Program-made: the position numbers and the translations under genes | NCBI GenBank assembly: GCA_035873375.1 | Contig: JAYWMQ010000048.1 | Location: forward strand, 1 to 48,112 | Length of the DNA stretch: 48,112 bases | Reading direction: 5' to 3' | DNA from: Nitrospirota bacterium | GTDB lineage: Bacteria > Nitrospirota > Thermodesulfovibrionia > Thermodesulfovibrionales > JdFR-85 | The notes under the pieces: model-generated | The model's database searches: none | What the model was told of the DNA's origin: nothing | What the model saw: only the letters and a program-made list of their open reading frames with translations | Shown here: one piece after another, positions 8,706-44,650 of the stretch | How the letters are laid out: each line of letters begins with the position of its first letter | Numbering within the stretch: the stretch's first letter is position 1

Positions 8706-9738
8706 ACCTGTAAATCTCGATATCATGATATCCATGGTGAGGGATGCCTTGCAGAAGAGGGAATGGGTGCTGGAAACAAAGGAAGACATACCCGGCAGGT
8801 ATCAGTTCCTGAATATTATCGGTAAATCAGCAGCAATCCAGGAAGTATTCTCCATGATTCAACGCGTCAGCAAGACTGACGCCGCTGTCCTCATACTCGG
8901 CGAAAGCGGCACAGGCAAGGAACTGGTTGCACGGGCCCTTCACTATACCTCGCTGAGGGCAAACAGTCCGTTTATCCCCATAGACTGTACCACGATCCCC
9001 CCGGAGCTGATGGAGAGCGAGCTCTTTGGTTATGAAAAAGGGGCTTTTACCTGTGCCTATGACAACAAGGTCGGTCTTATCGAGATGTCAGAGGGAGGCA
9101 CCATATTTTTTGACGAGATCGGTGACCTCGACTTTGCACTCCAGAAAAAACTGCTCAGGTTCCTTCAGGAAAAGGAGGTTCACAGGCTTGGCGGAAAGAA
9201 GAAGATAAAGGTCGATGTCCGTATCCTTGCCGCAACCAACAGAAATATAGAGGAGGCGGTTGAAAAGGGTGACTTCAGGGCAGACCTTTACTACAGGCTC
9301 AATGTTATAACAATTAACATCCCCCCGCTCAGGGAAAGGAAAGAGGACATCCCCATCATAGCCGCTCACTTCCTTGAATTCTTCAGCAGGAAAAACAAAA
9401 AAAACATTCCGGGTTTTGATTCAAAAGTCACTGACATCCTTATAAATCATGACTGGCCGGGCAATGTCAGGGAGCTTGAAAATGTTATTGAGCGTGCGGT
9501 TATTCTATGCCCTTACGAGCAGATAACAGTTGACTGTCTTCCCCGTAAACTCAAGCTGGTCGCTGAAGAAGACCGCTTTGGAACCGATGGGTTTAACCTC
9601 GTTGAGATGGAAAAAAGAGTTGTGCTGAAGGCCCTTGAGAAGACATCATGGAACCAGTCAAGGGCAGCAGCCCTTCTCGGTATAAGCCGCAAACAACTCA
9701 GGACCAGGATGAAGAACCTCGAATTGTTACCGGGATAG
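8698..9738 (+). CDS. Sigma-54 activator AAA+ and DNA-binding domains (3' fragment of frameshifted NtrC-family gene)
   Basis: This is the remainder of the regulator gene. The AAA+ domain has Walker A GESGTGKELVARAL, Walker B GTIFFDEIGDL and the WPGNVRELENVIERAV segment, followed by a Fis-type helix-turn-helix (NQSRAAALLGISRKQLRTRMK). The sigma-54-contacting loop reads GAFTCA rather than the near-invariant GAFTGA. The only start near the break is a TTG at 8698 that overlaps the upstream stop (TTGA) and lacks a ribosome site, so separate translation is doubtful. With the 14-bp repeat reduced to one copy this joins the receiver. The 3' end overlaps the convergent oxidoreductase gene by 12 bp. Confidence 0.85.
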   Translation: MTKPVNLDIMISMVRDALQKREWVLETKEDIPGRYQFLNIIGKSAAIQEVFSMIQRVSKTDAAVLILGESGTGKELVARALHYTSLRANSPFIPIDCTTIPPELMESELFGYEKGAFTCAYDNKVGLIEMSEGGTIFFDEIGDLDFALQKKLLRFLQEKEVHRLGGKKKIKVDVRILAATNRNIEEAVEKGDFRADLYYRLNVITINIPPLRERKEDIPIIAAHFLEFFSRKNKKNIPGFDSKVTDILINHDWPGNVRELENVIERAVILCPYEQITVDCLPRKLKLVAEEDRFGTDGFNLVEMEKRVVLKALEKTSWNQSRAAALLGISRKQLRTRMKNLELLPG

Positions 9739-10545
9739 ATACAGCAGGCTATAGTTTTTAATCTCCCTGTATGAAAAGACAGGGCCGTCTGTACAGATGT
9801 ATCTGGGACCTGCATAACAATGACCACATTTACCGACCCCGCACTTCATGTGTGCCTCAAGAGTGGTAATTATTCTCTCCTCAGGCATTCCAAAGAGGAA
9901 TAGCTCTCCCATGGCGGCCTTTATCATCACCTCGGGGCCGCATATATAGGCTGCGGCCTTCTGCAGGTCTGAATGCACCTCCTGCCAGAGGCCTGTTACC
10001 AGACCGACATGGCCCTTCCAGCCTTTATCAGCCCTGTCCACAGTGAGAAGGACCTTTATTCCCCTCTCCTTCCAGCCCTTCATCTCATCCCTGAAGACAA
10101 TATCATCAGGAGTTCTTGCACCGTACAGGAGCGTTACCTGACCCACATCCTCTCTTTTTTTCATAAACCACTGGAGAAGCGGTCTTAACGGGGCCATGCC
10201 GATCCCGCCTGCAACTACTACAACATCCCTGCCCCTGGAGATATCCAGGGGAAAGCCGTTGCCATAGGGACCTCTCAGCCATAACGAATCTCCGGCTTTC
10301 AGGGAATGGATTGCCCCGGTAACGAGGCCGGCCCTCCTTATGCACAGCTCCACCGTATTACCCTTTCCGGAAAGGGATGTCACTGATATGGGAACCTCTC
10401 CTGCACCCCATACCGAAACCATAAAGAACTGTCCCGGTGCATATTCAAGCGGCATTTGAGTCCTTACCCTGAAGAGGCTCACGTCCCTGCCCTCGGGTAT
10501 AATCTCCTCGATCTTTCCGCTTACAGGCAAGTATATATTTTTCAT
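9727..10545 (-). CDS. FAD/NAD(P)-binding oxidoreductase subunit (sulfhydrogenase gamma / AsrB-like)
   Basis: A 272-residue ferredoxin-NADP reductase-type flavoprotein. The FAD domain (EYAPGQFFMVSVWGAGE, about residues 35-50) is followed by the NAD(P)-binding domain (VVVVAGGIGMAPLRPLLQWF and YICGPEVMIKAAM). The C-terminus has a [2Fe-2S] set, Cys in CGVGKCGHC and a fourth Cys in YICTDGP. This is the pattern of the gamma subunit of Pyrococcus-type sulfhydrogenase and of AsrB, which exchange electrons with NAD(P)H. Here it is the third gene behind a formate dehydrogenase and an Fe-S subunit, so the likely role is NAD(P) reduction with electrons from formate, or the reverse. Confidence 0.85.
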   Translation of the reverse strand: MKNIYLPVSGKIEEIIPEGRDVSLFRVRTQMPLEYAPGQFFMVSVWGAGEVPISVTSLSGKGNTVELCIRRAGLVTGAIHSLKAGDSLWLRGPYGNGFPLDISRGRDVVVVAGGIGMAPLRPLLQWFMKKREDVGQVTLLYGARTPDDIVFRDEMKGWKERGIKVLLTVDRADKGWKGHVGLVTGLWQEVHSDLQKAAAYICGPEVMIKAAMGELFLFGMPEERIITTLEAHMKCGVGKCGHCYAGPRYICTDGPVFSYREIKNYSLLYLSR

Positions 10546-10659
10546 TTTTCACTTACCATTTTTCATTTGTCATTTGTTATTTGTTATTTGTTTTCCTCTT
10601 CCGTTGAATCCTGTTAATCCTGTCTGAGAAAATTCCTGTTTTTGCTTATCAGTTATTCT
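10546..10659. repeat. Short-word A/T-rich repeat tract between two operon genes
   Basis: On the plus strand 10546-10600 is built of imperfect reiterations of CATTTTTCA, CATTTGT and TATTTGT, and 10608-10624 has CCTGTTAATCCTGTCTG. There is no gene. The same AAAATGGTAA word occurs inside the coding sequence of nifEN at 37447-37479. The tract lies between the AsrA-like and AsrB-like genes and removes the usual ribosome site of the latter. Confidence 0.7.
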
Positions 10660-29579: not shown

Positions 29580-29620
29580 AAAAGTCAGAATCTGTGGAAT
29601 GTCATTCCGATGACTTTTTT
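29580..29620 (+). terminator. Intrinsic terminator after the flavoprotein gene
   Basis: AAAAGTCA (29580-29587) pairs with TGACTTTT (29611-29618), with inner pairing of GAAT and ATTC, and six T end the stem. Confidence 0.65.
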
Positions 29621-30040
29621 GTGTTCTGTCACCCTGAAGTTGTTTCAGGGTCTCAAAAGAGGCTGGAACAGAGAGATGCTGAATCAAGTTCAGCATGACA
29701 GTGACGGAGCGGTTATGCCGGATGGAGCTTTGTGTTCTGTCACCCTGAAGTTGTTTCAGGGTCTCAAAAGAGGCCGAAAGGGAGAGATGCTGAATCAAGT
29801 TCAGCATGACAGTGACGGGAGCGTTTATACCGGATGGAGCTTTGTGTTTTGTCACCCTGAACTTGTTTCAGGGTCTCAAAAGAGGCTGCAACAGAGAGAT
29901 GCTGAATCAAGTTCAGCATGACAGCGATGGAGCGTTTATACCGGATGGAGCTTTGTGTTTTGTCACCCTGAACTTGTTTCAGGGTCTCAAAAGAGGCCGA
30001 AAGGGAGAGATGCTGAATCAAGTTCAGCATGACAGCTGAA
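29621..30040. repeat. Four-copy tandem array of a 111-bp double-hairpin unit
   Basis: Copies begin at 29630, 29741, 29853 and 29964 (spacings 111, 112, 111). Each unit has hairpin A, CCCTGAA...TTTCAGGG, then a spacer with CTCAAAAGAGGC, hairpin B, ATGCTGAA-TCAAG-TTCAGCAT, and a variable link containing CCGGATGGAGCTTTGTG. Copies 1-2 carry AAGTTG in loop A and copies 3-4 carry AACTTG; the text after CAAAAGAGGC alternates between copies 1/3 (TGGAACAG or TGCAACAG) and 2/4 (CGAAAGGG). So two-unit steps of amplification are likely. No protein is encoded; the apparent frames are low-complexity. Confidence 0.95.
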
Positions 30041-36492: not shown

Positions 36493-39207
36493 TTATAAAT
36501 CATCCTGAAACAGCAGATTTGCCATCTCGTTAATCATCACAAGCGTCCCTCTATACCCTATGGCAATCCTTGAATTATTCCCCAAAACCTTATACACGGG
36601 AAACCCCGTCTGATACAACGGCACACCAAGCCTCTTTGCTGTATCCGCTCCATGAGAACCTGCAATCAAAAGGTCGAAATCACCGTCTATTGAAAAAAAG
36701 TCGCCAACAAGGACATTCCCTGCATAAATTCTCCCTGCAGATTCCGTACGGGACGGAACAACCGAAAGTCCAACTTCAGCACCCATCTCACTGAGCACCC
36801 TTGAGACCTGGACCGACAAATCAGCCTCCAGGGCCATACAGACCCTTTTGCTGCCAAAATAGAAATGAGCATCCCTCATTCCGTCAATCAGCACCCTTCT
36901 CTGCCTTTCGTATTTAGGAGGCACCTGCCTGCCACTCAGGGCTGAAAGCGTCTCCATGAATGCATCCACTCCCTGAAGACCGTAAATACTCTCAAACATG
37001 GTGTATTCAATGCCAAAACTCTCTTTCAAAAGCCTTGCCGGCCCTTCCATGCTCATCCCTATCGCTATGGTAAATCCGGCACTGCCCATCGTCTCAATCT
37101 CACTCATCTTAGTACCACCGGAGGAGAGTGTCGAGAACTCCTGTCTGCTCCCGTCAAGTGCGGAAAGGTCAGGCAGGATAACCGGGGTCAAGCCAAAAGA
37201 TTCTATCATCTCACGCAACTCTGTAAAGTCAGCAGGAGTCAGGTGCGAGCCAACAAGGACATTTACTTTATAATTTCCGCTTAAGCGTCCGGCATCAGGA
37301 AAGCCTGCAAGGTCTTTTACTTCTGCCTCCAGCCTTCTGCCTTCAGCCTTCCGTCTTCCAACTACAGACTCAATGACTGCCTCTACCGCCTTTGCATATC
37401 CCGTCTCCAGACCGCCTTCATAATCAGGAGTGGAAACATAGACAATTTGCCGTTTACCATTTTCCATTTTCCATTTTTTTATCGTCCCTGCCACATCGTC
37501 GCCCTTGACCTCTGAAAGTCCTGTGGTAAGGACACCTATCAGGTCCGGCTGCTGTTTTTCGATAACCCCTTCAACAACTGTGGTCAGGTTTTCCTCACTA
37601 CCCATTACAACATCCTCTGTAAAGAGTTTTGTGCTCATCAGTGCAATAGGCTCTCTGAAGTGTTTTGTTATAAGCACTTTTGCAAGGAAATTACAGCCCT
37701 GCGCCCCATGAATAACCGGGAGTGTCCTGTCTATCCCCTGCAGGGCAATTGCAGCCCCTATGGACTGGGAGTGTTTTAAAGGGTTTATCAACACATCCCT
37801 GTCGCTTCTGGTTTTTAAGGGAACAGATACAGTTTGCCCGCTGATTTCCGACCCGCAAACCTCTTTACCATTGAAAAATCTGACACTGTTACTTATCTGC
37901 TCTGCAAGGTTTACAAGCCCGTCATATCCGGCATAGGCGATGTGTCTCTCCTGATTCACATCCACAAAAGGGAACCCCTCTTTCATGGCAAGATAGAGGT
38001 TACGACCACCTGCAACAAGCATATCCGCCGCCCTCTCCTTCATAAGCTTCCTCAGGTTTGCCGGAGTAACATCCTCAATAAGAGGGGCATCCTTGCCAAG
38101 TATGGCCTTCATCTTCTCCTCATCCTCAACCGTGCTCTTTTTAGTACCCACTGCAACTATCTCTATCCCGAGATCCTGAAGGGCAGAGATAAAAGACCAG
38201 CTCTTGACTCCACCCGTATAGAGCACGGCCTTCATGCCCCGCAGATGAGCATATTTTTTCAGTTTTTCTCCAAGCCCGGTCTCTTCACTTTCAATCACTT
38301 TATCGATCTTCTGTGCCAGGTCAAAATCACTCCATGCGTTTAAACGACTTGAACGGCCGGAGCTATTTGAACGGCTGAAACCGCTTCCAATCCCTCTCAA
38401 CGCCTTTGCCATCTCGGTTTTGCCAAAAAAGGAGACCTCAACATAAGGTATCCCGTACTTCTTCTCCATCTCCTTGGCAACATTCACGAGGGCCCGGCTG
38501 CAGACCACTACATTCAGGTCTGCGCTGTGTGCATAGGTTATCTCTTCAAACGTTGCATCCCCTGTAATCCTGGACATGATCCTTACGCCTGCCTTCCTTA
38601 GCACAGGCTCAATAAGCCACAGGTCACCTGCAATGTTATACTCCCCGATAAGGTTTATAAATCCCCCCCTGGCGGAGAGGTTGTCAGGGGGCTCACCTGT
38701 ACCTATTACAGAATCAAGCAATACCTCACCCGCTATCCTGTTTCCAAGGTTTTTAGGTCCCACAAACCCCGGGGCATTAACGGGTATGACCCTTATGCCG
38801 CAAGCATCCTCTGCCTTCCTGCAGATAGCATCCAGGTCCTCTCCGATAAGACCGCTTACACACGTGGAGTAAACAAAGATCGCCTTCGGGTGTACGGACC
38901 TGTACGTCTGGACAATGGCATTGAAGAGCCTGGTCTCAGAACCGTAGACAATGTCTATCTCGTCAATATCAGTTGTAAAACCCAGCTTATACAGTTCACC
39001 CTGAGATGATAACGTGCCCCTGCCTTCCCAGGTGTTTCCGCAACACGCTATGGGACCGTGAACAAGATGTGCCGTGTCGGCAATGGGCTGAAGCACTATC
39101 ATTGCCCCGTCAAAGGCACAAGACTCTCCGCCACGGCTCCTGCAGAGTTTTTCCTTTTTCTCCACGCCGCAGCCACTCTCTAAAAGTTTATCAGTCCCGG
39201 TTAACAT
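36493..39207 (-). CDS. nifEN: NifE-NifN fusion, FeMo-cofactor scaffold
   Basis: A 904-residue fusion in a single frame. Residues 1 to about 445 are NifE: GESCAFDGAM with Cys30, GPIACCGNTWEGRG with Cys55/56, YSTCVSGLIGEDLD with Cys116, and Cys236 in NVVVCSRAL as the likely precursor ligand. About 455-904 is NifN, with HGAQGCNFLAKVL (Cys505). NifE and NifN are normally separate proteins that form a tetramer on which the cofactor is completed before transfer to NifDK. The join has no start codon with ribosome site. Three stretches (residues 275-290, 577-587, 616-631) are low-complexity and are encoded by short-word repeats. Confidence 0.93.
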   Translation of the reverse strand: MLTGTDKLLESGCGVEKKEKLCRSRGGESCAFDGAMIVLQPIADTAHLVHGPIACCGNTWEGRGTLSSQGELYKLGFTTDIDEIDIVYGSETRLFNAIVQTYRSVHPKAIFVYSTCVSGLIGEDLDAICRKAEDACGIRVIPVNAPGFVGPKNLGNRIAGEVLLDSVIGTGEPPDNLSARGGFINLIGEYNIAGDLWLIEPVLRKAGVRIMSRITGDATFEEITYAHSADLNVVVCSRALVNVAKEMEKKYGIPYVEVSFFGKTEMAKALRGIGSGFSRSNSSGRSSRLNAWSDFDLAQKIDKVIESEETGLGEKLKKYAHLRGMKAVLYTGGVKSWSFISALQDLGIEIVAVGTKKSTVEDEEKMKAILGKDAPLIEDVTPANLRKLMKERAADMLVAGGRNLYLAMKEGFPFVDVNQERHIAYAGYDGLVNLAEQISNSVRFFNGKEVCGSEISGQTVSVPLKTRSDRDVLINPLKHSQSIGAAIALQGIDRTLPVIHGAQGCNFLAKVLITKHFREPIALMSTKLFTEDVVMGSEENLTTVVEGVIEKQQPDLIGVLTTGLSEVKGDDVAGTIKKWKMENGKRQIVYVSTPDYEGGLETGYAKAVEAVIESVVGRRKAEGRRLEAEVKDLAGFPDAGRLSGNYKVNVLVGSHLTPADFTELREMIESFGLTPVILPDLSALDGSRQEFSTLSSGGTKMSEIETMGSAGFTIAIGMSMEGPARLLKESFGIEYTMFESIYGLQGVDAFMETLSALSGRQVPPKYERQRRVLIDGMRDAHFYFGSKRVCMALEADLSVQVSRVLSEMGAEVGLSVVPSRTESAGRIYAGNVLVGDFFSIDGDFDLLIAGSHGADTAKRLGVPLYQTGFPVYKVLGNNSRIAIGYRGTLVMINEMANLLFQDDL

Positions 39208-39254
39208 TTAATATCTTCCTTGTGTATTTTCAGGGTCTTAAAATCTTTTTTTTT

Positions 39255-39302
39255 GTCACCCTGAATTTATTTCAGGGTGACATTGCTGAAACAAATTCAG
39301 CA
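39255..39302. repeat. Palindromic repeat pair between nifK and nifEN
   Basis: GTCACCCTGAA (39255-39265) and TTCAGGGTGAC (39271-39281) form an 11-bp stem with a 5-nt loop, followed by GCTGAA-ACAAA-TTCAGC (39285-39301). These are hairpins A and B of the dispersed family, here inside the nif operon, 35 bp before the nifK stop in genome order and 48 bp after the nifEN start. Confidence 0.9.
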
Positions 39303-39336
39303 TGACATGTTACACTGTTTGTGCTTTCTGCGAAAC

Positions 39337-44424: not shown

Positions 44425-44650
44425 TGTCATTCTGAATTTATTTCAGAATCTCTAAGAATCAAAGACTTATGAGACCCTGAAACAAGTTCAGGGTGACAAA
44501 GCAAGAGTTTACACAACAAGTTCTTAAGTGGTTGATTTTGACGAATATGTCTCTCTGAATAGTTGCCGGGTTAATATGAAACCGGTAAATAAATACGGAG
44601 AGATGCTGAATCAAGTTCAGCATGACAATAGTTAATCAGCATGACAATAA
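44425..44650. repeat. Cluster of palindromic repeats and 106-bp repeat copy 2
   Basis: Hairpin A variant ATTCTGAA...TTCAGAAT (44429-44449), the 106-bp dispersed repeat (44473-44578, beginning with CCCTGAA...TTCAGGG), and hairpin B (44603-44623) follow each other. TCAGCATGACAATA is repeated at 44616 and again at 44636. This fills most of the 319-bp gap between cysK and rel. No gene. Confidence 0.9.

Follow-up and report, generated by a model that had tools for sequence, protein, structure and literature searches.

How do tandem short words, of a kind that also lies between genes, come to stand inside the reading frame of an essential enzyme? The question is raised by nifEN in a 48,112-nucleotide stretch of DNA (the window), which is contig 48 of a 2.67-Mb Nitrospirota genome, G000. 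A preliminary description had claimed three such tracts in this gene. On balance we favour the reading that the NifEN tracts are coding copies of genome-wide small dispersed repeats, in which 7-bp words are copied, selected, slipped and decayed. G000 was sampled in stretches (397 kb) and by pattern searches, and a NifEN alignment was built from 74 non-redundant genes of the class.

Tandem words in nifEN

The 904 codons of nifEN are one uninterrupted reading frame. TIGR01283 nifE (592 bits, cut-off 505) and TIGR01285 nifN (435 bits, cut-off 327) both match in that frame, and the product matches the 9i0g NifEN fusion (E 2e-218). The product is a bona fide NifE-NifN fusion. Its features are given in Table 1.

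Table 1. Features of the window, with residues numbered along NifEN
Feature	Position	Strand	Words	Residues	Remarks
nifEN	36493..39207	-			Intact frame; fused NifE-NifN scaffold for FeMo-cofactor assembly, 904 aa
Site A	38338..38385	-	CCGTTCAA-type	275-290	18-bp duplication
Site B	37783..37875	-		445-475	NifE-NifN linker; tract-free in G000
Site C	37443..37482	-	AAAATGG	~576-587	Heptamer tract; modelled as helix end and turn to strand
Site D	37320..37363	-	GAAGGCW	~615-630	Heptamer tract
Intergenic tract	10549..10600	+	ATTTGTC/ATTTGTT/ATTTTTC		Heptamer tract; adjoins ORF 9727-10545(-)

Three lag-7 tracts were found in the window, two in nifEN and the third between genes. The tract at site C matches itself at 19 of 21 positions at lag 7 (4.7 copies in TRF) and the one at site D at 18 of 21 (4.6 copies in TRF). 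No such tract arose anywhere in the gene when codon order was shuffled (0 of 2000 trials). When synonymous codons were shuffled and the protein kept, the site C value was reached in 41 of 2000 trials and the site D value in 9 of 2000. The proposed tracts at 37447-37479 and 37315-37362 are thus 7-bp arrays. The third, at 38338-38385, is not. A heptamer array at site A of G000 is ruled out by just 4 of 21 matches at lag 7, and what stands there is an imperfect 18-bp duplication holding CCGTTCAA twice. A relative with 91% identity, L001, is shorter by exactly those 18 bp, which is one copy. A word was also said to be common to nifEN and the intergenic tract at 10546-10600. This amounts to a single 10-mer, AAAATGGTAA, and no array is shared.

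The residues encoded by the three stretches had been described as inserted. Residues 616-631 do fit, since site D of G000 exceeds that of most of the NifEN family, where it is short and without a tract, by about 20 residues. So do residues 275-290, which make site A about 15 residues longer than in Azotobacter NifE. Residues 577-587 do not. Within the window's genus, site C reads AAAATGG in G000, a decayed form of AAAATGG in L001 and GGATTCA in L008, and the loop is 21 residues in all three. Its modal length across the family is 21 aa both with and without a tract. Site C in G000 is therefore replaced sequence and not an insertion, because loop length is unchanged across words and without a tract. 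We also rejected the idea that tracts merely lengthen loops: of the four sites, C alone differs in length between genes that have a tract and genes that lack one, and even there the mode is the same.

The tracts were further said to lie in surface loops. We modelled NifEN from 17 sequences (mean pLDDT 76), and the best structural matches to the model are NifEN chains. Residues 284-292, 447-474 and 623-643, at sites A, B and D, have pLDDT below 50, and site C is modelled as ordered, where helix 572-583 ends and the chain turns into strand 587-591. Because of this the term surface loop would suit sites A, B and D, and site C only in part.

Another dispersed palindromic repeat is present in the window, TGTCACCCTGAA...TTCAGGGTCTC / TGTCATGCTGAA, at 29618-30035, 39250-39308 and 44425-44627. 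The window has 30 matches to TGTCACCCTGAA at up to 2 mismatches, where 4.9 would be expected. One set is a 111-bp tandem array of 3.8 copies, and another lies just upstream of nifEN.

Four sites across the class

At lag 7 the 74 NifEN genes yield 88 tracts. The remaining lags between 4 and 13 yield 0-3 apiece, and codon shuffles yield 0; lags 14 and 21 are harmonics of lag 7. Every one of the 88 falls at one of four sites (window residues): A at ~270-285, B in the linker at ~445-466, C at ~571-587 and D at ~611-630. At least one tract is present in 44 of the 74 genes, and all four sites are filled in three. Heptamer arrays occur at site A in 26 other species and at site B in 19. Reading frames stay open in nearly all of these genes.

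The words at one site vary by species. They include AAAATTC, AGAAGTC, AATCAGC, GGGTCAA, CACGATT, TTGCCCC, GGGATTG and others; at site C alone relatives have GGATTCA, AATCAGC, GGGTCAA, CACGATT and others, and site D of L019 has an AGAAGTC-type array. Same-site words are near-identical (0-1 mismatch) in 29 of 171 species pairs with 80-90% core NifEN identity and in 4 of 6 pairs above 90%. On the coding strand 78 of the 88 words are open in all frames, and on the other strand 31 are. In these uncultured Nitrospirota the same loops are hit repeatedly with words that differ by species, so a DNA-level process probably keeps rewriting small parts of essential proteins.

Is a tolerant loop all that is needed? 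The variable loops at residues 171-185 and 807-845 never have a tract in the 74 genes, so tolerance alone fails to predict the sites, which is a weak point of the reading we favour. NifD from the same operon served as a control, and among 30 genes/species it has zero tracts and constant lengths of 474-476. The flanks of nifEN have 4 tracts in 81 kb. Distant NifE/NifN loci of Firmicutes (L009, L010, L012, L013) have zero tracts in 37 kb. It must be noted that one draft genome, G045, has two nifD copies (C100 and C234), 93% and 98% identical to the NifD of the window, from a duplication or a mixed bin.

NifEN probably just tolerates its tracts; there is no sign that they aid its work, and we infer that they are neutral. 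One gene stands apart. In L021 (G152) an in-frame TAA lies at site C beside the remnant of a GGATTCA array and a CCCCGA...TCGGGG palindrome, with the NifN remainder open downstream. This NifEN is possibly broken or split.

Spread of words within genomes

NifEN is one host gene among many, though a very frequent one. Ten lag-7 tracts were found in the 397 kb of G000. In 400 kb of G021, a single 2.37-Mb contig of the same order, there are 43; coding sequence accounts for 34 of these, with AlaRS, MutS and a CobB-like protein among the hosts. In G208, 71 kb hold 0. Coding sequence has 12-94 tracts per Mb in the samples that have any. Between genes the figure goes up to 87-613 per Mb in four of five samples, the fifth having one tract in all. 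The rate in NifEN is ~450 per Mb, computed from its 88 tracts. Tandem 7-bp units are above chance throughout, with lag 7 well over other lags in NifEN, CobB and the genome samples. All 16 tracts in CobB of the class are in one inter-domain linker and their words are unrelated. NifEN is thus not the only protein in which a single tolerant site is used over and over. A 105-bp AAGATGG array lies in frame between the two domains of the CobB-like protein of G021 (L126:6851-6955). A 57-bp array in HolB is confined to G000 and G045.

The main rival to our reading is local slippage during replication and nothing else. A partial repeat present by chance in a tolerant loop would grow in 7-bp steps, site by site, 7 being the unit that the polymerase favours. 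According to work cited in PMC4679880, heptamers are reported to outnumber the other repeats of 5-11 nt in most of the bacterial genomes surveyed, and polymerase slippage has been proposed. Close species do differ by 21 bp, or three words, at site D, which is that much longer in L001 than in the window. Several other length changes between relatives are not multiples of 7. The NifEN words of G000 are also nearly private. AAAATGG arrays were found in nifEN only when searched for across G000, AAAATGGAAAATGG is likewise confined to nifEN in the genome as a whole, and for GAAGGC arrays a single weak match turned up outside the gene. The preliminary description had suggested a search of the genome for these words, and it is a different word, AACCCGC, that turned out to be spread. 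Neither NifEN word of G000 therefore has a clear donor elsewhere in the genome, and this counts against our reading.

However, slippage at each site is unlikely to account for AACCCGC. Its exact array, AACCCGCAACCCGCAACC, is in 8 places in G000 and ~20 in G204, which belongs to another family. It is in none of 118 other genomes, so 1 of 119 besides G000 has it, and a reversed-letter control gave 0. With up to 2 mismatches there are 21 loci in G000: 13 stand in frame within recognised genes, and 6 are clearly intergenic. The in-frame hosts are MqnC, HolB, KdsB, CobB, MutL, TrpE, RimO, CarB, FolC, LeuS, an NusG-II protein, a pilin-like protein and a weakly recognised SurA-like protein. Both strands of AACCCGC are open and both are put to use, giving NPQPATR or GCGLRVA. 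Local slippage alone is probably insufficient because one word is at 21 loci of G000 and its exact array is in one of 119 other genomes.

Three further observations go against slippage alone. Two tracts have a word in common in 10.3% of pairs within a genome versus 4.4% between genomes (permutation, 0 of 2000). An inverted partner array lies within 80 bp of 16 of 64 tracts versus 2 of 128 controls. The CobB inserts of G045 and G046 have a T-rich spacer (AACAGT..TT.ATTCTCTTAACCCGC) close to the spacer of the intergenic copies in G000. We regard slippage alone as rather doubtful.

Genomes have favoured words, and one word is found at many loci both between and inside genes; AATTCAA, for example, is in 29 of 120 genomes at up to about a dozen loci each. 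The coding copies keep the frame and recur at corresponding tolerant sites in conserved proteins, and their words turn over between species although the remainder of the protein is conserved. The earlier proposal, by which one process both seeds intergenic tracts and strikes an essential enzyme that tolerates it, is supported by the same word lying between genes and in frame inside genes of G000 and by the recurrence of tracts at four fixed sites in 44 of 74 NifEN. An empty site with a target duplication was sought in HolB, CobB and RimO, and no clean case was found, a further weak point of our reading; the array-free neighbours carry unrelated loops. As a separate observation, AACCCGC arrays of G204 (L254, L256, L272, L278, L280) have a longer left flank in common that ends in TAGCCGTTG, as though a larger mini-element carried the array.

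Could selection act on the protein, favouring loops that are flexible, polar or disordered, so that the repeat in the DNA is a side effect? The low pLDDT at sites A, B and D of the model is in line with this. However, same-site peptides such as FKIQNSK, QSAISNQ, RSQKSEV, WKMENGK and LAPCPLP have nothing in common, the model gives site C an ordered helix and strand, the periodicity seldom survives synonymous shuffling, and arrays of this kind also lie between genes. We find this explanation very unlikely. Templated addition of 7-nt units at broken ends, by a telomerase-like or other reverse transcriptase, would give a fixed unit length at variable positions and would let a genome hold a preferred word. 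This is more improbable still, as there are many words per genome. We rejected a reverse transcriptase as the writer since the PF00078 domain was not found in G141 and G219, which are both rich in tracts. An artefact of assembly or sequencing is scarcely credible: most of the genomes are drafts from metagenome bins, but the single contig of G021 has its 43 tracts, frames are open in nearly all genes, and L001 and L018, two records of one species, agree exactly at all four NifEN sites.

The favoured reading, that the NifEN tracts are copies of dispersed repeats, can be put as a series of steps. Arrays would be copied to new places by some enzyme or by template switching in repair, and would land regardless of genes. 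Selection would retain those that are open and in frame in a tolerant loop or linker. Slippage would next alter the copy number, and point mutation would then wear the array down to what looks like any other loop, until a further word is written over it.

Known repeats and the meaning of the arrays

We suggest by analogy that the Nitrospirota arrays may work like Rickettsia palindromic elements (RPE) and the heptamer repeats of cyanobacteria. RPE were reportedly described by Ogata and co-workers. They are families of roughly 100-150 bp with conserved sequence and fold. Like the Nitrospirota arrays they are small dispersed repeats, between and inside genes, and in frame at tolerated positions. 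By this description they are set apart from the Nitrospirota unit, which is a 7-bp word that varies by genome and at the same site and changes in copy number. The short tandemly repeated repetitive (STRR) heptamers and small dispersed repeats of heterocystous cyanobacteria, said to go back to Vioque 1997 and Elhai 2008, are likewise tandem 7-bp words, mostly intergenic and also in the RNase P RNA gene. STRR are known from non-coding RNA and intergenic DNA, whereas the Nitrospirota arrays are mainly in frame in core protein genes, where homologous sites are reused. PMC2635572 mentions RPE-bearing proteins, and PMC4748335 lists Vioque 1997.

Two other sets of 7-bp repeats are worth considering. 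Geobacter metallireducens has heptanucleotide elements (GGACCGG, 49 copies) and class 3 sites (MTYCTGA), interpreted as regulatory RNA elements or regulator binding sites; the excerpts of PMC2700814 do not describe homologous protein loops filled by changing words, as seen in Nitrospirota. TAACTGA direct repeats occur in Beggiatoaceae, cyanobacteria and Bacteroidetes (PMC4679880). Like the Nitrospirota arrays they are direct 7-bp repeats, patchy across phyla and at many loci per genome. Unlike them they are one stop-containing word, mostly upstream of start codons, with a proposed role in translation (same source). Our search of the literature on heptamers in coding genes, Nitrospirota or NifEN found nothing on in-frame arrays of this kind. 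Heptamer arrays and in-frame selfish repeats are already known. The Nitrospirota arrays join the two, and in addition the same protein sites are refilled by changing words.

Heptamer arrays are usually regarded as intergenic clutter or regulatory sites. Here the reading frames of tRNA synthetases, CarB, MutL, HolB (a clamp-loader subunit) and the scaffold for the nitrogenase cofactor contain them. They provide a natural map of where essential enzymes have tolerant loops, and they are a clear case of new protein sequence from repeats. Young inserts could reveal the copying mechanism. It is possible, and we say so tentatively, that in Nitrospirota an active DNA process writes genome-specific 7-bp arrays at fresh positions, inside genes as well, and keeps supplying core enzymes with new loop sequence, in which unrelated words overwrite one another while loop length stays near fixed.
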